The notes beneath the pieces are model-generated. The model saw only the letters and a program-made list of their open reading frames with translations. It did no database searches and was not told the DNA's origin. A stretch of 25,580 nucleotides of DNA from a virus. The position numbers were made by a program, and so were the translations under genes. This document shows, piece after piece, positions 2,670-23,934 of this stretch (position 1 is the stretch's first letter; each line of letters opens with the position of its first letter). The DNA is taken from the IMG/VR virus record IMGVR_UViG_3300046733_000117, positions 1-25,580 of that record; one strand, given 5' to 3'.

Positions 2670-3166
2670 AGCACCCACCCATTAAAGTTTGCATCGTAGC
2701 TAGGACTTACATCGTCATTACTGTTAGATGTGTATTCAGGAAATTTAGCTTGGTTAAAACTCATATGGTCAATAAATCTTCTTGTATAATATTCTGCAAT
2801 ATCCATTTCTTTTTTAGCTAGGAAGTCTATTTCTTCTTTGCTAACAGATTCTGCTGCTTCACTAGTATGCTTAAATACGCCACCGTTTTTGATTGTAACA
2901 GAAGCAAAGGGCAAATAGTCAACCATTGCAAAATGGATCAACATAGGCTGTATGTAAGAGTTTACTAATTCTAAATAATCTCCTGTTAAGTTATTGGCTA
3001 GAATGTCATTGCTGATCTTGTTGTATAAATCAGTTCCTAGATAGTTTTTAATATGTATCTCTTGAGCAATCTTGATAAACTGAATAAACTTATCTGTGTC
3101 TACATTACCATCTAAGATGCTATTTCTTACTAAATCTGTTCTTGTTATAAATAGTGCTGTAGCCAT
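2666..3166 (-). CDS. Head-tail connector-like protein (putative)
   Basis: This 166-aa protein is largely helical. Its N-terminus (MATALFITRTDLVRNSILDG) is followed by a segment with IKIAQEIHIKNYLGTDLYNKI, and the C-terminal tail is Asn/Ser-rich and ends GWVL. The arrangement resembles small helical connector or head-completion proteins (gp6 type) encoded next to portals in Bacteroidetes phages. That assignment rests on size, fold impression and position, not on a diagnostic motif. Its ATG overlaps the last base of the portal stop, which suggests translational coupling. It probably shares the transcript that starts at the promoter at 5368-5396. Confidence 0.55.
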   Translation of the reverse strand: MATALFITRTDLVRNSILDGNVDTDKFIQFIKIAQEIHIKNYLGTDLYNKISNDILANNLTGDYLELVNSYIQPMLIHFAMVDYLPFASVTIKNGGVFKHTSEAAESVSKEEIDFLAKKEMDIAEYYTRRFIDHMSFNQAKFPEYTSNSNDDVSPSYDANFNGWVL

Positions 3167-4947
3167 TATCCTCTAGGTTTTATAAATCCTCTATTTTTCA
3201 TATCTTTTGGTCTCTTAGCTACTTTAGGATTGTTAACCTCAGGTGTAAATCCTTCCTTTTTAGCTTTGTTTACACTTATCTCTGCTTTAGGATTAGTAGC
3301 ATCAGGCTTAACATCTACTGCCATATAGGTTTTACGCATCCAAAAATGATGACAATCACCTCCGCCTTTGTAGAGCCATATGTCATAAGTAGCAGCACCA
3401 CCTTTACCCCATCCTGCATTTACTGCTCTTTGACTCATTGACATTATATCTTCTTTTCGATATATCTTTTTAGCAGACACCATCTTCTTACAAAACTCTC
3501 TACTATTAGCAGATGTTCTTAAAGGTGCATATTGATATCTTACTTTAAATTTCATATCCTCTACCTCACCATCTTGATCGCTTTTAGCATTTGGTCTTGC
3601 TGTTCCTGTAGAAGCTAAGCCTATCATTTTATCTAGCGTCTCTTCTTGATCGTAATCTACTTCTCTTTCATCGACTAAGACCCAATTTTCTAAATCTTCG
3701 TCTTCTCCAAATTCATCTAACAAGTCAGCAACTTCTTCTGTAGCTTCAGGTTTTTGCTCACTCATTTTTACACCAGTTTCTTCTTCTTGCGTTTCAGCAT
3801 CCTCTACATTCTCTAAGTCTGTAAATTCTAAAGGCTGTAAAGTTTTAAAGTATAGATTAAGTGAAATGCTATTGTAAGCTAGTATTTGATCAAAGGCATC
3901 TATTAGTAAAGTTTGAAAAGGTCTTATAACGGTGTTATCCATTAAAATAGAGGCTGTTTTTAACTCGTCTGCGTTGTTTCCTAACCCTGTACTATCCTTT
4001 ATGCCTAAAAGCATCGGAGAAACGATCCTATGGCTTACTAGTATCTTCCTAGCACTCTCATCTGAAAGGAACTGGTATTGGTTATGTGCATCAGATAATT
4101 GTACAGGCTCTATATTAGCTTGAGAGTCGGTATTGTCATTAAAACTAAGAATAAACTTACCAGCGTTAGAACTGCCTGAGAACTTCTCGTAGATTCTTTG
4201 CTCTATTAATCTTCTTTGTTCTTCATTAGGTACACCATTATTAAAGTTAATTAGCATACTAGGTGCTAGACCATTCATAATGTTGTTTAAGTGATAGTTG
4301 CTTATCTCTTCTTCTAGTTCGCTATATTGTAAGCCTCCTTGATAGTCTACTGGTGAGTAGTAATAGAATCCTGCTCTGTAAGGCTTAACTACATATATCT
4401 CTATTGATTCTTTGCTAGTTTCAAAACAAGGTATTCTTTTAGGCTGTTCACTAGGCTTTATACTAGACCAGTCTTTATGATAGTAGTATGCTTCTATATC
4501 TCCGTCTTCGTTGCATTTTTCAGCTCTTAGCGTTTCAATAGGAAAGTGTTCTACTTGTGCTACCTTAGTTCTATCCTTAGAATATATAATTTGCATTGCA
4601 CAGCTACCCATCAATTTAAGATCAAAAGCTAACTTTCTAACACAATCTTTTTTAAGTAAAGAAATTGCTTGTGCATATTGGTCAGGCTTTCTACTAGAAT
4701 CTGTAGCATCTAAACCTTTACCATATATCATTTCTGACAAGCCATTTATTGCAGCATTGTTTGTAGGAGAACCATTATATCTGTCAATTAAGAATTGATA
4801 GTAGTTATTATCCTCTCCGTAAGAAATCCAATCTTTATTTTTAACCTCTTTGATCTTAGGTGAAGTATAAGTGCTAAGATTTACCATATGCACCTCTGAA
4901 GATGTTTTAGGTCTTGGAGCAGGTCTGTAATTTTTTACTTTTTTCAT
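3166..4947 (-). CDS. Portal protein with C-terminal Cys/His domain
   Basis: This 593-aa protein has the layout of a phage portal. It has an N-terminal wing with WISYGEDNNYYQFLIDRYNG, then SLLKKDCVRKLAFDLKLMGS, a stem/clip region, and the segment RKILVSHRIVSPMLLGIKDS at roughly residues 300-320 that is typical of Bacteroidetes phage portals. After an acidic linker (about residues 385-440, many E/D) there is an extra domain at about 470-550. It contains SREFCKKMV and YDIWLYKGGGDCHHFW, so it has conserved-looking Cys and His residues, and a basic tail follows. The portal is the dodecameric head vertex and docks the terminase. Its ATG overlaps the stop of the gene before it by 4 nt. The C-terminal domain recalls the Cys-containing end of Mu F/SPP1 gp7-type minor head proteins, which would make this a natural fusion; that is inference. 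Confidence 0.85.
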   Translation of the reverse strand: MKKVKNYRPAPRPKTSSEVHMVNLSTYTSPKIKEVKNKDWISYGEDNNYYQFLIDRYNGSPTNNAAINGLSEMIYGKGLDATDSSRKPDQYAQAISLLKKDCVRKLAFDLKLMGSCAMQIIYSKDRTKVAQVEHFPIETLRAEKCNEDGDIEAYYYHKDWSSIKPSEQPKRIPCFETSKESIEIYVVKPYRAGFYYYSPVDYQGGLQYSELEEEISNYHLNNIMNGLAPSMLINFNNGVPNEEQRRLIEQRIYEKFSGSSNAGKFILSFNDNTDSQANIEPVQLSDAHNQYQFLSDESARKILVSHRIVSPMLLGIKDSTGLGNNADELKTASILMDNTVIRPFQTLLIDAFDQILAYNSISLNLYFKTLQPLEFTDLENVEDAETQEEETGVKMSEQKPEATEEVADLLDEFGEDEDLENWVLVDEREVDYDQEETLDKMIGLASTGTARPNAKSDQDGEVEDMKFKVRYQYAPLRTSANSREFCKKMVSAKKIYRKEDIMSMSQRAVNAGWGKGGAATYDIWLYKGGGDCHHFWMRKTYMAVDVKPDATNPKAEISVNKAKKEGFTPEVNNPKVAKRPKDMKNRGFIKPRG

Positions 4948-5363
4948 ATTATGATATAATCGTTGTCGTGTGTATTCTCTGTAACATATTCATCTTTATT
5001 GACGCTGTAATACTCATCCTCTGTTTGGTCTAAGTTTTGGTCTGTACAGAATACCTTATCTTTATATAGTGATAGTGCAGCACCTTGTGAAGCATCCCAA
5101 GTATCAGAGTTTAATTCCCACACTAAAGTATTTTGCTCAAATAAGTTAGGATCAACTACAAAATCAAAATCATAGAACCTACCCTCTATTAAGTTAAAAG
5201 TACTTGTGTAAATAAGTTCATCTTTTTCTTGTGTGAAATCGACTGTTTCATTAGTCACTACATTTGTACTATCATCTCTAATATATAGCGTAGCAGATAA
5301 AACATATTCTCTAGGTGTGAACCTTATACTTTGTTCTTCTGTGCTAGTAGTAAGTATCTTCAT
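4944..5363 (-). CDS. Uncharacterised beta-rich protein upstream of portal
   Basis: This 139-aa acidic protein has alternating hydrophobic/polar segments (YVLSATLYIRDDST, GRFYDFDFVVDPNLF), suggesting a beta-sandwich, and an Asp/Glu/Tyr-rich C-terminus. I do not recognise a family. It is the first gene of a transcription unit. A promoter-like element of the late class lies 4 nt before its ATG and a terminator lies just upstream of that. Its stop overlaps the portal ATG (ATGA), so it is probably translationally coupled to the portal. A structural role in the head vertex is plausible from context only. Confidence 0.75.
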   Translation of the reverse strand: MKILTTSTEEQSIRFTPREYVLSATLYIRDDSTNVVTNETVDFTQEKDELIYTSTFNLIEGRFYDFDFVVDPNLFEQNTLVWELNSDTWDASQGAALSLYKDKVFCTDQNLDQTEDEYYSVNKDEYVTENTHDNDYIII

Positions 5364-5367
5364 ACAT

Positions 5368-5396
5368 ATATAACGCTAAAAAGCAAATATTTTGCA
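5368..5396 (-). promoter_or_regulatory. Late-class promoter-like element P4
   Basis: On the minus strand, TGCAAA (5391-5396) is followed after 15 nt by CGTTATAT (5368-5375), 4 nt before the ATG at 5363. The same boxes and spacings occur at 7630-7658 and 10043-10071. It does not match the Bacteroidetes housekeeping consensus. The element lies 7 nt after a terminator, as expected for a new transcription unit. Confidence 0.75.
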
Positions 5397-5403
5397 TAGG
5401 TGC

Positions 5404-5432
5404 AAAAAAAAAGGCTAACATTTCTGCTAGCC
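5404..5432 (-). terminator. Rho-independent terminator after the tail tube gene
   Basis: On the minus strand an 8-bp stem GGCTAGCA / TGTTAGCC (one G-T pair) closes a GAAA tetraloop and is followed directly by nine Ts (5404-5412). It lies 21 nt past the tail tube stop and immediately before the next promoter-like element. Confidence 0.9.
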
Positions 5433-5453
5433 CTCCTTCTTATCAAACAATTA

Positions 5454-5981
5454 TTATGCGTCAGGGTCGATTTGACTAGCTGAAGCGTCATCTGTAATTA
5501 CTGTAGAAGTAACAAAGAATGCAGGAGATGTCTCCATAGCCTCAAAAGTTAAAGTGAATCCTGAAAGGTCTCCCATTGCTGCACCTGATACTACAGTTCC
5601 TCCTGTAACTTCAGCACCGTGTTCTAGTCCTACTAAGAAAAAGTTTCCGTTGTAGTCCTCGATAGCAATATGGGGTCTAGCTGCTGCTAGTAATTTAATT
5701 TCCTCTTGTGTTGCCTTATCTAAAAATGTCAAAGTCAAACTAAGAGTCTGTGTATAAAATGTTGTACCATTTTCACGTGAAGAGTTAATTGCAGTCTCTA
5801 AGCTAGAATTACCTTTAATATCAAATTGATACCAATCTGGTGATCCTGCTAAAGCTGTAATTTCTCCTGCGGCAATGGTAGCTGTACCTAGTGTACCGTA
5901 ATCTGCAAAGTAGACTGTTTTCAATCCACCTACAGCCGATTTACAAGGTAAACTTCTTCCTGTTGTTAAAGCGCAAGCCAT
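5454..5981 (-). CDS. Major tail tube protein (probable)
   Basis: This 175-aa protein begins MACALTTGRSLPCKSAVGG, a start seen in structural proteins of Bacteroidetes siphophages. It is beta-rich, with a central region (TQTLSLTLTFLDKATQEEIK) and a Gly/Thr-rich C-terminal half. The size and pattern suit a tail tube subunit, which polymerises as hexameric rings around the tape measure. It sits alone between two rho-independent terminators, directly after the capsid gene, which suits a high-copy structural protein whose dose is set separately. I see no promoter of either class in front of it, so it probably depends on read-through past the terminator at 5996-6030. A head decoration protein is the main alternative. 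Confidence 0.65.
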   Translation of the reverse strand: MACALTTGRSLPCKSAVGGLKTVYFADYGTLGTATIAAGEITALAGSPDWYQFDIKGNSSLETAINSSRENGTTFYTQTLSLTLTFLDKATQEEIKLLAAARPHIAIEDYNGNFFLVGLEHGAEVTGGTVVSGAAMGDLSGFTLTFEAMETSPAFFVTSTVITDDASASQIDPDA

Positions 5982-5995
5982 AGTTTTATATTATT

Positions 5996-6030
5996 AAAAA
6001 AGGGTGAGCAGGAATCTTCCTAACCCACCC
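5996..6030 (-). terminator. Terminator/attenuator between capsid and tail tube genes
   Basis: On the minus strand GGGTG (6026-6030) pairs with CACCC (6002-6006), with an inner AGGA/TCCT stem and an imperfect middle. Six Ts follow at 5996-6001. It lies 24 nt after the capsid stop and 15 nt before the tail tube ATG. With no promoter between, it may let only part of the transcripts pass. Confidence 0.8.
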
Positions 6031-6053
6031 TCTATATTAGACAATTATTGTTA

Positions 6054-7001
6054 TTATGCTAAAGTTAGTAAAGATAGGTCTGAACCAATTCCGTACTGTA
6101 CTCCTGCTGTAAATCTCATTACGACTCTTACATTTTGAGAACCGTCTAAGTCAGCCATATCTAACAATTTAACTTCTTGGTGATCTGATAATAGACCTGT
6201 ACCAAAGTAGATGTTAGACTTCTGTCCTGCTACGATGTGATCTGTAGGCATTCCAGGTGCTAGAACAACTTTGATTCCATCAAAAGAAAGTGCATTCCCT
6301 TGATTGTACCATAAGTTACCTCTGTTATCAACCCCTTGCGCTCCTACTCCTTGCGCTCCGTTTCCACCTAGATAGCGGATGTAAGATTGCCAAGCTGAAG
6401 TTGGTACATAGATGTTCAAGTCCTCTTTTCCATAGACTGCGCTAGGTAAAGAATCTACTACGTTTCCGAGTAGTGTAGCAATGTTTGTGCTAGAGAAAGC
6501 AGTTTCTCCACCATTAGCAGCATCGTTTACGTCAGCGTCAGCACCAGCTAATACTGTGATACCGTCAAACTCACCTGCGTTTCCGTTTACACCTGCCCAA
6601 ATGTTTTGCTCATTCTTCTCAGCTACTAATCCTGCAACGTGAGAAATTAAGAAGTCGCTAAATGCTGGTGGCAAGTTATCAAATGCAGAATATCCCATTT
6701 GTACTGCTTCCCAGTCGCTAGCAAAATCTTTCTTACATAACTCAAGGTTAACTTGAAACTCTTCAGGCTGAAGGATTCTTTCAGTAAGAGTGATAGTTGC
6801 TGTGTCTGTAAAGTCACAAGTAGCGTCTTTTATGACGTTAGCGTCTGTTGCTACTTTTTTGATAACCTCTTTGTATTTTACATTAGGTTTGATTTCGATA
6901 TTCCCCTGCTCGATAGTAGGAGAAGATAATAACGCTGCTGAAATATACTTTCCTGCAAATTCGCCAGCGTATGTAGTTGTGATACTAGTTGTAGTTGCCA
7001 T
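6054..7001 (-). CDS. Major capsid protein
   Basis: This 315-aa protein fits an HK97-fold coat protein of Bacteroidetes phages. The N-terminus is Thr-rich (MATTTSITTTYAGEFAGKYI), followed by a long beta/E-loop-like region (NIEIKPNVKYKEVIKKVATD). A helical spine-like stretch follows (about residues 95-150, CKKDFASDWEAVQMGYSAF), and then an A-domain-like C-terminal half (SAVYGKEDLNIYVPTSAWQS, then GIKVVLAPGMP). It follows the scaffold gene by 12 nt and is followed by a terminator, the usual setting of a coat gene. It shares the transcript of the promoter-like element at 7630-7658. No cleavage site can be proven from sequence alone, although a protease is encoded nearby. Confidence 0.85.
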   Translation of the reverse strand: MATTTSITTTYAGEFAGKYISAALLSSPTIEQGNIEIKPNVKYKEVIKKVATDANVIKDATCDFTDTATITLTERILQPEEFQVNLELCKKDFASDWEAVQMGYSAFDNLPPAFSDFLISHVAGLVAEKNEQNIWAGVNGNAGEFDGITVLAGADADVNDAANGGETAFSSTNIATLLGNVVDSLPSAVYGKEDLNIYVPTSAWQSYIRYLGGNGAQGVGAQGVDNRGNLWYNQGNALSFDGIKVVLAPGMPTDHIVAGQKSNIYFGTGLLSDHQEVKLLDMADLDGSQNVRVVMRFTAGVQYGIGSDLSLLTLA

Positions 7002-7013
7002 TTTTTAAATTTA

Positions 7014-7625
7014 TTATTTTAGGTTTGCAATTTTTTGAAATACTCTATCTCTTGTGCTAGTTGCTCTACGTTGGCTGAATAACACTTGATTTTTATTTGT
7101 TTCTGATTCAGGATTGTGCTTTAATGGAGCAGCAGCAGGTTTAGACAACTCTTCTTTTAGTTGCTCTTCTACTTCTTGCTCAGCCATTTCCTCTTTGTCT
7201 TTGATCATAGCTTTGATCTCCTCGATCATAGATTTAACCTCAGCTAGTTCTTCTTTAGTAGCATAAGCCATTTCTTCTTCTTGTGCCTCTACTTCTTCTT
7301 CTGCTTCAGCTTCTTTAATCTCTCCGATTATGCCTTCTTCAGCTACTACTAAAATCTTTCCGTCTTCCATTGTGTAGTCTCCTACAGGTACGGCTACTTT
7401 CTCATCTTCTGTTACTATGAAGATTTCATTTCCTGCTTCAAAAGCCTCAGCTTCTAAAACTGTTCCGTTCTCTAGTTTTGCTTGAGCCAATTCTACTTTT
7501 GTAGCTTCTTCTGCTTCTAAGTTAGTTTCTACTTGCTCAGTAGCCTCTACCTCTTTCACATCTTCCGATAACTCAATGCCTAGAATGTTTTTAATGTCCT
7601 TTAGCATTTCTGTTGGGTTTTTCAT
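7014..7625 (-). CDS. Capsid scaffolding protein (probable)
   Basis: This 203-aa protein is strongly acidic, with Glu/Ala/Val repeats. It has a small beta segment (NGTVLEAEAFEAGNEIFIV, about residues 53-71), a predicted coiled coil (ATKEELAEVKSMIEEIKAMI, about 122-141) and a basic C-terminus (FSQRRATSTRDRVFQKI). An acidic coiled-coil body with a basic tail directly upstream of the capsid gene is the classic layout of a prohead scaffold, whose C-terminus contacts the coat protein. The XkdF-like protease encoded upstream would be expected to degrade it during maturation. It is the first gene after the promoter-like element at 7630-7658. Confidence 0.8.
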   Translation of the reverse strand: MKNPTEMLKDIKNILGIELSEDVKEVEATEQVETNLEAEEATKVELAQAKLENGTVLEAEAFEAGNEIFIVTEDEKVAVPVGDYTMEDGKILVVAEEGIIGEIKEAEAEEEVEAQEEEMAYATKEELAEVKSMIEEIKAMIKDKEEMAEQEVEEQLKEELSKPAAAPLKHNPESETNKNQVLFSQRRATSTRDRVFQKIANLK

Positions 7626-7629
7626 ATTT

Positions 7630-7658
7630 ATATAACGATTAATAATTAGTATTTTGCA
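7630..7658 (-). promoter_or_regulatory. Late-class promoter-like element P3
   Basis: TGCAAA (7653-7658), 15 nt, CGTTATAT (7630-7637), then 4 nt to the scaffold ATG at 7625. No terminator precedes it; the upstream box lies 3 nt after the stop of the preceding small gene, so this would be an internal booster for scaffold and capsid. Confidence 0.75.
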
Positions 7659-8880: not shown

Positions 8881-10038
8881 TTAATTTATAGGTATACAAT
8901 TAGGCACTAACTTGCCATTTTTTCTTTTCATTCCGTATTGCTCATATCCTGCTTGACAAGGCTTTTTTAAATTGTGTTGCTCGCAAGGCATAAACCATAT
9001 CTTATCTTCAAATTCGTGTTCGTGATAACCATCACATCCTAAATCCTTTGCAGCTTCTAGTGCTTGTTCTTTAGTAGAGTAGGCTAGTCTGTCATCTATG
9101 ATAGCAGTATTCTCATCAATCACTTGTGATCCTACATACATATCTAGCTTTTTAAGTTTGTTGATTGCCCACTCAACTCCTGAAGTGCCACCCCAAGCAT
9201 CCCACATTAGTCCTCCACATCCTTCCGAGTAAGGTACATCTTTGTGTTGTTGGTGTCTTTTAAAGGATGCCATTCTAGCAATAGTATCTCTAGTGATTGG
9301 CTCTTTGTTAGCTAATTGGTTTGCTCTTTTTTTTCCTGTAGCTTCTCCACAAGAACCCCAACCATTCTTTTCTGCCCATTCTAAGGCTCTTTTAGCGTTA
9401 TTTGATGCTGAGTCAGGATAATCTGTATAAGATTCTAGTTCTTCCTTAAAAAGGTCTATTATTTGGTCTATCGTTTGTTTCGCATCTTGCTCTTCTTTTG
9501 ACATTCCTACAGCATCTTTGGGTCTTTCCATTTTATCTGCAAAGTAACCCTCAATAGAAAAGCCTTTTACCTTACCTGTTTTTACAAACTTCTCCCAAAC
9601 ATCATCATTATTTACTTTTACAGTACCCATCCAAGTTCCGATAGGCACATCCATACCGTACTTTCTGCTCTTATCGTGCACCTCATCCTCTACGATCCAA
9701 GACTCTACTAAGCTAAGTCCTGATAGTTCATACTGATGTTCTAGTGTTGAGTTGTTTTGATTGCCTTTCATTAAATACATTTGAGAGGCTTTTAAGACAG
9801 TATCTTTAGAAAAGTATATGTAGTACTCATCTTCTCCTGATCTTCTATATATAGGCTTGTTAGGTATCAATAAAGCACCCATAAGAATCTTTTTCTCACC
9901 TGATACTTCAGCTAGTTTTATTTCTTCTGCTTTTAGTGCTACAAAGTCCTCTTCTATTGCAGGATTCTCTACTACGCTTATAGCTTCGATTCCTACTGCA
10001 TCTTGGTCTTCGTCTAGTATAAGTTCTACGATTCTCAT
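8881..10038 (-). CDS. XkdF-like prohead serine protease fused to Cys-rich C-terminal domains
   Basis: Residues about 47-170 match the XkdF/S78-type phage maturation protease pattern: ALLIPNKPIYRR, YYIYFSKDTV, a candidate catalytic His in NSTLEHQ (about residue 100), Ser in LVESWIVEDE (about 112), PIGTWMGTVKV and GKVKGFSIEGYF. It would cut scaffold and coat proteins during prohead maturation. Two extra domains follow. Residues about 207-300 contain SASNNAKRALEWAEKNG, GSCGEATGKKRANQLA, and a His/Cys-rich GCGGLMWDAWGG. Residues about 315-385 contain LGCDGYHEHEFEDKIWFMPC and end GKLVPNCIPIN. The protein is 385 aa, far longer than a bare protease domain. It is first in its unit, 4 nt behind a late-class element. 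Confidence 0.8.
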   Translation of the reverse strand: MRIVELILDEDQDAVGIEAISVVENPAIEEDFVALKAEEIKLAEVSGEKKILMGALLIPNKPIYRRSGEDEYYIYFSKDTVLKASQMYLMKGNQNNSTLEHQYELSGLSLVESWIVEDEVHDKSRKYGMDVPIGTWMGTVKVNNDDVWEKFVKTGKVKGFSIEGYFADKMERPKDAVGMSKEEQDAKQTIDQIIDLFKEELESYTDYPDSASNNAKRALEWAEKNGWGSCGEATGKKRANQLANKEPITRDTIARMASFKRHQQHKDVPYSEGCGGLMWDAWGGTSGVEWAINKLKKLDMYVGSQVIDENTAIIDDRLAYSTKEQALEAAKDLGCDGYHEHEFEDKIWFMPCEQHNLKKPCQAGYEQYGMKRKNGKLVPNCIPIN

Positions 10039-17996: not shown

Positions 17997-18478
17997 AAAA
18001 AAAGTACCGCACTTAGTGCTGCATCTAAAGGCATAGCTTTCATATAGCCTGTCTCTTTTGCTGTGTACTCTTCTATTGAGTATCTTTCTCCATATCGATT
18101 CTTGATCGGTCTATATAGAACTCCCATTGCTCTATCCATCAATTCCCAGTCTGTAAGATAGTTATCCAGGTCTATGTATTCTCCAAAGGATATATCTTCT
18201 AGGTTAGGAATAAAACCATACTCTACACCATCCATAAAGAAAGTCTTTTTAAGTGCAGGCTTCTCATTAAACATATCTGATAGAATAGCACATATACCAT
18301 TTACATCTGCTAGCTTTAGCTTCATTACATCTGTAAGTTTCAACTCGCAGAATATCTCTATCATTTTGCTAGATAAGAATCTCTCATCTGTGTTCTCGTT
18401 CTGTATTTTTAAGAACTTCTGATATTGCCCTAGTGTGATCTCCGATAACTTGTCAGGAACTGTAATATCTATCTTCAT
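17828..18478 (-). CDS. Tail assembly chaperone (G-like), zero-frame product
   Basis: This 216-aa protein opens MKIDITVPDKLSEITLGQYQ, then has NLEDISFGEYIDLDNYLTDW and RAMGVLYRPIKNRYGERYSI. The region from about 145 (MPLDAALSAVLFFYHLGIDL) crosses a nine-T run. It ends GVGTRQFTHSLKEILQDLKI. I interpret it as the short, abundant chaperone of a G/GT pair, because a long protein-like -1 frame continues from the T-run to the next gene. The pair coats the tape measure before tube assembly and is absent from mature virions. It is the first gene of the tail unit, 4 nt behind a late-class element and past a strong terminator. Confidence 0.75.
   Translation of the reverse strand: MKIDITVPDKLSEITLGQYQKFLKIQNENTDERFLSSKMIEIFCELKLTDVMKLKLADVNGICAILSDMFNEKPALKKTFFMDGVEYGFIPNLEDISFGEYIDLDNYLTDWELMDRAMGVLYRPIKNRYGERYSIEEYTAKETGYMKAMPLDAALSAVLFFYHLGIDLSMTMMNYLEHKEETALQQFLNLEQSGVGTRQFTHSLKEILQDLKISLN
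17995..18003 (-). promoter_or_regulatory. Probable -1 frameshift slippery site
   Basis: Nine consecutive Ts on the minus strand cover two in-frame Phe codons (17999-18001 and 17996-17998), forming T TTT TTT. After a -1 slip the next codon is TTA at 17994-17996, in the frame that stays open to 17742. I see no strong stem-loop or pseudoknot just downstream, so the homopolymer may act alone. Confidence 0.7.
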
Positions 18479-18679: not shown

Positions 18680-18870
18680 AATTGTATCTGTTCTATTATT
18701 GCCTCCTCTATATTCGAGTTTATTAAGTTCTTTAATTCTCTGCCGTCTTCTGTAGTGACGCTTACTAAAGAATAGTTTCCTGCATATCCTACTGAGTAAT
18801 CAGCAGCTTCTTTTTCATACTCTATGTAGTATGTTCTATCGTTGTGATCAAGTGTTGTGCTGTGTATCAT
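18676..18870 (-). CDS. Small 64-aa protein of unknown function
   Basis: The protein starts MIHSTTLDHNDRTYYIEYEK and has beta-like segments (YAGNYSLVSVTTEDGRELKN) and a helical end (NSNIEEAIIEQIQL). It looks like a small beta-alpha domain and has no catalytic motif. It lies between a GNRA-looped hairpin just before its start and the membrane peptide coupled to its stop. The start is the first ATG after the hairpin. Function unknown. Confidence 0.65.
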   Translation of the reverse strand: MIHSTTLDHNDRTYYIEYEKEAADYSVGYAGNYSLVSVTTEDGRELKNLINSNIEEAIIEQIQL

Positions 18871-18882
18871 AATTGTAATTTT

Positions 18883-18902
18883 AAAAGGGGAGTTGCCTCC
18901 CC
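18883..18902 (-). terminator. GC-rich hairpin with GCAA tetraloop, weak terminator or 5' RNA element
   Basis: On the minus strand GGGGAG pairs perfectly with CTCCCC around GCAA (18887-18902), followed by only four Ts (18883-18886) before the A-rich leader. It ends about 13 nt before the ATG at 18870. With such a short T-run it may attenuate, protect the downstream mRNA from 3' decay, or affect translation of the 64-aa gene. Confidence 0.6.
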
Positions 18903-18911
18903 CTGTATTAA

Positions 18912-19112
18912 TTAAAAATTAACTCTTAAATTAAGCATTTTTTTTGCTGCAATTCTTAAAGGATCATTTACTTCCTTGTGTTCTAACATTTCTTTTTTTG
19001 CATAAAACGCTTTCAAAAACATTTCCTCATCTTCTTTATATTCAAATATTGGAATGTTTAGTTGTTCTTTTAAAGATTCTATCGCCCATTCTAATTCTTC
19101 ATATCGCTCCAT
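18912..19112 (-). CDS. Small acidic helical protein, possible longer 5' reading frame
   Basis: From the ATG at 19112 the product is 66 aa (MERYEELEWAIESLKEQLNI), Glu-rich and helical. The same frame is open and protein-like for 43 further codons upstream, to a TAA at 19242-19244, with segments such as ENFEILDNLFTVEDCQNLEE and FRVLNFIARIADEAFQERF. That stretch holds no ATG, GTG or TTG codon. Either translation starts at a rare codon within it, or the 5' end of an older gene of about 110 aa has been lost and the downstream Met is used. The extended frame lies downstream of the host-type promoter, so it is transcribed. No function recognised. Confidence 0.6.
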   Translation of the reverse strand: MERYEELEWAIESLKEQLNIPIFEYKEDEEMFLKAFYAKKEMLEHKEVNDPLRIAAKKMLNLRVNF

Positions 19113-23115: not shown

Positions 23116-23163
23116 AATAATTGTGTTTAATAATTCGCCTACTCTTTAGCTTTTCGGCTTCCG

Positions 23164-23934
23164 CTATAATATTCCTTCTAAATAATACTCATCTAAATCT
23201 ACTCCCTGTAAAAAGAAAGTCTCATATATCTTAATGGCTTCTTCTACTTTTGCTTTACCACTTAAATAGAATTCTTCTGAGCAATGATAGATTCCTATAT
23301 CTAAACTCTTCTTGTCAATGGCTATAAAAGTAAACGCATCGTAAGGCACGTCAAATAACTGACAATACAGATAGCATTGAACATTATAGGAAAATTTTTG
23401 AGATGTGTACCTAAAGCTGTTTTTTAGGTCTGTAGTCGTCTTAAGATCAACGATTCGATTCTTGCCTAGTACGTCTGCCTTGCCTCTAAATGGCATACCC
23501 ATTACTTCTCCTATCGCAGGAACTTCAAACTCTGTGTTTTGTAAATACTTTAATGCTTTCTCATTTCTTAGAAAGGCATCCGCTAATCTCTCTGCATCTC
23601 TCTTTTCTCTTTTAGTGAATACCTTTCCGTGTTCTTCCTTTGCTAACTTATAAGCCTTAGAGTTTTTTGATTCTACATCTACAAATACTTGCGAGTTAAA
23701 TACATCAGGTTCTAGTATTGCTGTGTGAAACAACCATCCATCTCTTAAAGGCTGTGATTCAGGATTGCCATACTTTGTTACATTGTAGTAAGTCTTAGGA
23801 CTTGTAAGCAATAACTTTAGAGATGAACTACTTAGTGCAGCTTTTGACAAGTAACCATAGTAGAAGCTATCGTCTTGCATCTTCTCTAGTATTTCTTTTT
23901 CTTCGTGCTGTGTTCCGTCTAGTAATGTGATCAT
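23164..23934 (-). CDS. PD-(D/E)XK nuclease (RecE/Cas4-like, DUF3799 type)
   Basis: This 256-aa protein has the layout of RecB-family phage exonucleases: YLSKAALSSSSLKLLLTSPK at 29-48, GWLFHTAILEPD (His70), GKADVLGKNRIVDLKTTT with Asp154, Asp163 and Lys165 as the active site, and a QxxxY motif (Gln186, Tyr190). Such enzymes resect double-strand ends for annealing-type recombination or process replication ends. No recT-like gene is seen in the window. Its ATG overlaps the preceding stop by 4 nt. Confidence 0.85.
   Translation of the reverse strand: MITLLDGTQHEEKEILEKMQDDSFYYGYLSKAALSSSSLKLLLTSPKTYYNVTKYGNPESQPLRDGWLFHTAILEPDVFNSQVFVDVESKNSKAYKLAKEEHGKVFTKREKRDAERLADAFLRNEKALKYLQNTEFEVPAIGEVMGMPFRGKADVLGKNRIVDLKTTTDLKNSFRYTSQKFSYNVQCYLYCQLFDVPYDAFTFIAIDKKSLDIGIYHCSEEFYLSGKAKVEEAIKIYETFFLQGVDLDEYYLEGIL

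Follow-up and report, generated by a model that had tools for sequence, protein, structure and literature searches.

A hairpin followed by six Ts stands between two genes on the minus strand of virus record IMGVR_UViG_3300046733_000117, named capsid and tail tube by the first-pass annotation, and raises the question of how the tube message is made if transcription stops in front of it. We studied a stretch of 25,580 bases of this record, which is possibly a fragment; this stretch is called the window, and its longer reading frames lie on the minus strand. In the order of transcription the locus consists of a promoter motif, a scaffold-like gene, the capsid gene, the hairpin (T1), the tube gene, a second putative terminator (T2), another copy of the motif and the next genes (Table 1). 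Sequence comparison makes it fairly probable, in our judgement, that T1 is a partial intrinsic terminator and that read-through of transcripts begun at the promoter motif supplies the tube message, which ends at T2. In this phage and its uncultured relatives, polymerases leaking past T1 are thus the probable sole source of tail tube.

Table 1. Coordinates of the capsid-tube locus and of the motif copies in the window
Feature	Position	Strand	Remarks
Scaffold-like gene directly upstream of capsid	7014..7625	minus	phrog_24921; named by position only
Major capsid protein, predicted HK97 fold	6054..7001	minus	phrog_11320; Z up to 15.1, model mean pLDDT 63.5
Capsid-to-tube gap, 72 nt	5982..6053	minus	holds T1 and an AT-rich leader
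T1, putative terminator hairpin	6002..6030	minus	-16.9 kcal/mol; same-junction hairpin of <=-6 in 48/48 cluster representatives
T1 U-tract (T6)	5996..6001	minus	T-run of >=5 after the stem in 39/48 representatives
Tail tube protein	5454..5981	minus	phrog_19091; predicted-fold matches, model mean pLDDT 72.0
T2, putative terminator behind tube gene	stem 5432-5413, T9 5412-5404	minus	hairpin-plus-T scan
Motif behind tube gene and T2	5367..5396	minus	3 nt before ATG at 5363
Motif before gene upstream of capsid	7629..7658	minus	presumed source of capsid and tube mRNA
Motif with deviations	10071-10042	minus	before gene starting at 10038
Motif with deviations	18511-18482	minus	before gene starting at 18478

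The T1 stem reads GGGTGGGTTAGGA-AGAT-TCCTGCTCACCC on the minus strand (6030-6002) and is followed by the six Ts, a 14-nt AT-rich leader and the tail tube ATG at 5981. The six-T hairpin described in the first-pass annotation is thus present with its limits of 5996 and 6030 exact, and the spacer to the ATG is 14 nt. The whole capsid-tube gap folds at -21.4 kcal/mol (z -3.77), a value equalled by none of 200 shuffles. T1 is the top hairpin-plus-T site of the coding strand in a scan of the window; the best such sites in 20 shuffled windows (one strand each) range from -8.3 to -14.3. Three properties fit an intrinsic (Rho-independent) terminator: a stable G+C-rich hairpin, a U-tract adjoining the stem (T6 in the window, short or interrupted in 9 of 48 representative relatives) and base pairing that is preserved despite sequence change. 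A simple terminator scan omitted T1, presumably owing to an inner bulge, and also omitted the T2 hairpin, which apparently meets its rule; such an omission is weak evidence. No Rfam family was found at T1. Elsewhere in the window, DUF805b RNA (RF02914) matched with 44.7 bits at 23136-23167 on the minus strand, just upstream of a ParB-like gene (23115-22354).

The capsid, tube and scaffold-like genes belong to PHROG families annotated as function unknown, and a Pfam search returned nothing for capsid or tube. The AlphaFold model of the capsid protein resembles HK97-type capsids and encapsulins (best Z 15.1, rmsd 5.8 over 240 residues; Z 12.1-12.7 to HK97 entries). The AlphaFold tube model matches the SPP1 tail tube with Z 10.0 (rmsd 3.6, 122 residues), an 80alpha baseplate entry with Z 9.9 and lambda tail entries with Z 9.3-9.5. 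At E <= 0.001 Foldseek alone gave a single match to the tube model, a baseplate entry from a phage; the tail-tube identity derives from the Z-score matches to SPP1, 80alpha and lambda and not from Foldseek. At the level of predicted folds, T1 is flanked by a major capsid gene and a tail tube gene, as the gene names in the first-pass annotation had it.

Relatives were collected from viral contigs, which were scanned with the tube protein and with three capsid queries: the capsid itself, an alignment of capsids and the capsid of Nonlabens phage P12024L. This yielded at least 202 loci (the best 80 per scan). We dropped the copy of the window itself (L001) and loci without a usable capsid-tube pair (L004, L006, L017, L023, L031, L050, L082, L091, L173, L186 and L187). 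Inhavirus-type loci (L158 and L198-L204) were treated separately and lie outside the resulting 143 distinct capsid-tube gaps. A hairpin of <=-8 kcal/mol is present in 139 of these gaps, and in 121 it is additionally followed by a T-run of >=5. To curb repeated sampling, 48 representatives were chosen with tube proteins less than 85% identical. All 48 have a hairpin of <=-6 and 46 one of <=-8 kcal/mol. Stem and T-run of >=5 occur together in 38 of the representatives versus one of 480 dinucleotide-shuffled gaps, a hairpin of <=-8 by itself being reached in 52 of the shuffled gaps. The nine representatives with a T-run shorter than five or interrupted all retain the hairpin.

Covariation was assessed on a plain alignment of the 48 gaps, instead of a table of folded stems in which the pairs form by construction. 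Of all cells in the eight-pair stem 94.8% are paired, a proportion that none of 500 shuffles reaches. Both sides of a pair have changed in 16 cells, and 17 further pair types occur; neither number is reached by any of the 500 shuffles. The both-side changes are spread over five of the eight pairs, a count also attained in 68 of the 500 shuffles. When the partner is shifted by 1-3 columns, pairing drops to 42-71%; a second plain-alignment run gave identical pair counts. Covariation beyond these controls is support for the T1 stem and not proof of it, since related sequences can exceed such shuffles. Upstream of the stem, GTNTAA begins 9-17 nt before it in 56 of 123 gaps.

A covariance model of the gap was searched against 37 sources. 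The 28 best of the 67 places listed are capsid-tube junctions on the sense strand; L008 and L088 are the same contig, and many of the sequences at these 28 places also contributed to the model. Such a junction match at E <= 1 was found in 34 of the 37 sources, the window scoring 56.1 bits; L038, L158 and L199 gave none. Lower-scoring matches include the reverse strand of the nearly symmetric T1 hairpin and T2-type hairpins (best E 0.026). A separate hairpin of the window, GGGGGAGGCAACTCCCC at 18866-18927, lies between two small reading frames without a long T-run and matches the model weakly on both strands (E 0.23 and 0.39).

Where, then, could transcription of the tube gene begin? At four sites of the window a motif resembling a late promoter, TGCAAAAT-N13-CGTTATATA, ends 3 nt before an ATG. 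A matrix was built from these four sites with a cut-off score of >=10, and start codons were chosen by the best motif score in the same way for every gene, with shuffled sequences as the control. For the gene upstream of the capsid, 51 of 95 starts reach the cut-off (shuffled 1/105), and for the gene behind the tube 46 of 80 do so (shuffled 0/81). At this score the motif was detected at none of 103 capsid starts and none of 105 tube starts, as in the shuffled controls (0/103 and 0/105). It was not detected at the other 44 of the 95 upstream-gene starts, and with starts of that gene set by alignment alone 13 of 49 reach the cut-off. Position and conservation point to a late promoter, and if the motif is one, the resulting mRNAs would be leaderless, with their 5' ends on the start codon or right beside it. 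The motif copy at 18511-18482 is directly preceded by another minus-strand hairpin (18542-18523, -10.6 kcal/mol, then seven Ts), presumably a late-gene border.

No promoter of either class was recognised between T1 and the tube gene, in agreement with the first-pass annotation. The Bacteroidetes-type -7 box (TANNTTTG) is absent from the minus strand between 6453 and 5982 and, on either side of the hairpin, from all 123 gaps of relatives. The late motif scored >=10 in none of 110 gaps, starts with less than 80 nt upstream being left out; three gaps reach >=8, none with the motif ending within 8 nt of the ATG. The first-pass annotation had also allowed for an unrecognised promoter in the 3' end of the capsid gene, and this is disfavoured. 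In the last 400 nt of the capsid genes the late motif reaches the cut-off in 1 of 129 cases versus 9 of 129 shuffled ones, and conservation of synonymous sites is not raised at the capsid 3' end (0.40 in the two final bins of 15 columns versus 0.39-0.52 gene-wide). A Bacteroidetes-type promoter was sought in the last 400 nt of the capsid gene plus the gap in 47 of the 48 representatives, one being too short, and was rejected as a candidate: both boxes occur in none, and the -7 box alone in four, at scattered positions. Three sigma-70-like matches lie in the 3' part of the capsid gene on the minus strand, at 6331-6303 (10/12, with TG), 6217-6188 and 6072-6044 (9/12 each). Such matches are at chance level (34 found versus 41.3 expected in that half of the window), and a box pair similar to the first is found at the homologous place in 10 of 129 relatives and is not conserved. 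All three would start upstream of the T1 hairpin, and transcripts from any promoter upstream of T1 must also cross T1. Since T1 is conserved and no recognisable promoter lies behind it, read-through is the simplest source of tube mRNA.

A partial terminator should let some polymerases pass, and T2 offers a comparison within the same loci. T2 is widespread, being present at 67 of 98 junctions by a strict count and in all 84 distinct gaps by a looser one. Among loci with a run of at least four Ts (137 for T1, 112 for T2), the T1 run is mostly six (96/137) and the T2 run seven to nine (104/112). The 102 loci with both have the shorter run at T1 in 81 cases, equal runs in 15 and the longer run at T1 in six; these paired counts ignore kinship, and some contigs stand twice among the loci. 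Weighted T content is lower at T1 than at T2 in 29 of 31 representatives. Terminator strength was computed by a formula of the d'Aubenton-Carafa type, used only for comparing sites. The score is lower at T1 in 20 of the 31 representatives and higher in 11; in the window T1 scores 20.7, T2 36.4 and the terminator at 18542-18523 38.8. Stem stability goes the other way, T1 being stronger than T2 in 98 of the 102 loci. Given these stronger stems and the 11 higher scores, leakiness is not proved by sequence alone, and T1 as a moderate, leaky terminator is a plausible reading.

Under the read-through reading, RNA polymerase would start at the motif in front of the scaffold-like gene and transcribe this gene and the capsid gene. 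Part of the polymerases would stop at T1, leaving a scaffold-capsid mRNA with the hairpin at its 3' end, and the remainder would go on across the tube gene as far as T2, the more U-rich of the two. At the motif copy behind T2 transcription would begin anew, serving a small gene of unknown function and then the portal. The outcome would be more capsid than tube mRNA from a single promoter. The first-pass annotation had proposed that partial read-through fixes the ratio between capsid and tube subunits. Its footing, a conserved terminator-like element with no promoter behind it between genes with capsid and tube folds, is strengthened by the present data; that termination occurs, that it is partial, how efficient it may be and that the subunit ratio is its purpose, we infer.

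Other explanations assign the hairpin a different part. It is possible, if unlikely, that T1 is mainly a 3'-end barrier: the longer mRNAs ending at T2 would be trimmed by 3' exonucleases or cut, the capsid part would be protected, and mRNA stability, not termination, would set the ratio. All 48 representatives carry the hairpin and just 39 a T-run of >=5, and five loci (L018, L021, L028, L038 and L193) have essentially no T-run at T1, yet the tube gene of each is still followed by a hairpin with at least six Ts. Because these T-run-less lineages keep the hairpin, it may have a role in itself, for example in protecting the 3' end of the capsid mRNA. A barrier needs no T-run, yet stem and T-run occur together far more often than in shuffled gaps. 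Chance can account for weak hairpins, which are common in this AT-rich genome, as the shuffled gaps reaching -8 show; a functionless hairpin kept in every cluster, with covariation beyond the controls, is next to inconceivable.

Regulation of T1 seems improbable to us. Most polymerases would be stopped early in infection and the block later overcome by a phage or host antitermination factor, so that tube synthesis would be timed and not just lowered. The outer 5' arm of T1 has a mean identity of 0.80 versus 0.476 for that of T2 (113 loci, up to 4000 random pairs), and 37 of 123 gaps contain a TTGTNTAA stretch on the upstream side of the hairpin (6044-6037 in the window), which is perhaps faintly boxA-like. 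Lower variation is, however, to be expected of a 5' arm rich in G and T, as G-U wobble leaves the 3' arm free to drift, and the stretch is confined to part of the family. We give less credence again to a sequence-specific switch, with a phage or host factor reading the conserved 5' arm GGGTRGGT and the upstream stretch and changing read-through during infection. If this were true, capsid would come first and tail tube later, and the T-run-less lineages would keep only an RNA-binding hairpin. Least credible of the functional readings is a full terminator with an unrecognised tube promoter of its own. Only a start site within the 14-nt leader would bypass T1, promoters further upstream sending their transcripts through it. 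Late mRNAs of this phage may, by the position of the motif, have their 5' ends on the ATG or beside it, and the leader is rich in A and T. Yet the late motif is missing from all 105 tube starts, the upstream half of such a promoter would fall inside the hairpin, whose sequence is explained by base pairing, and the 48 aligned leaders contain no consistent -10-like sequence by eye.

Partial termination with read-through, the reading that we prefer, can be set against related and better-known phages. No named phage matched by DNA; by protein, the only named relatives found are Nonlabens phages P12024L and P12024S, and a pattern-based scan of bacterial genomes with the capsid gave no relative. P12024L (Inhavirus), the nearest named relative found (28% identity in capsid, 34% in tube), shares the order capsid, tube and, a little further, portal, and its tube gene too is followed by a hairpin, here with seven Ts. 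In the window the order capsid, tail tube, small gene, portal spans 3166-7001, with the portal behind the capsid in both phages. Unlike in the window, the capsid and tube genes of P12024L overlap and T1 is absent. In P12024L and five of the six other loci found by its capsid, the two genes abut or overlap without T1; this branch comprises L158 and L198-L203, and L204, which that query also returned, carries a hairpin followed by four Ts. The T1 device would thus be dispensable in the Inhavirus branch.

The arrangement recalls phage T7, whose gene 11 product is a tail tubular protein. According to PMC5592923, the sole terminator for the T7 phage polymerase, T-phi, directly follows capsid gene 10, and expression of genes 11 and 12 depends wholly on read-through. 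Like T-phi (PMC5592923), T1 lies behind the capsid gene with no recognisable promoter before the next gene. Predicted folds and gene positions place T1 between a major capsid gene and a tail gene, and by sequence motifs the interval from T1 to the downstream gene is promoterless. Both capsids have the HK97 fold, the T7 capsid entry 3j7v matching our capsid model with Z 12.8. A sequence relation to T7 genes was not found in protein searches of the phage collection, which returned Nonlabens phages only. The polymerase that T7 uses at T-phi is its own single-subunit enzyme. At the locus studied here, a single tail-tube gene would be reached by read-through, with T2 closing the region. Phage phiX174 is a small, tailless, single-stranded DNA phage with other genes. 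Its structural genes are separated by graded terminators, and read-through yields stepwise transcript levels suggested to aid stoichiometry, as described in PMC9135205. The present locus shares this alternating layout of genes and terminators, with read-through presumed. Passages of PMC4281155 place terminators between genes given by number and not by name. In Bacteroidetes phages the arrangement is not reported in the literature searched, subscription papers being mostly outside that coverage. The kind of arrangement is already known from T7; the novelty lies in its occurrence, its conservation and its natural variation in phages near Inhavirus that are known almost only from contigs. A phage group known almost solely from metagenome contigs would thus keep a T7-like gene-dosage device at its capsid/tail-tube junction, and its natural variants, with T-runs of nine, six, four or none and a branch without the device, could test read-through as the setter of the capsid-to-tube ratio.
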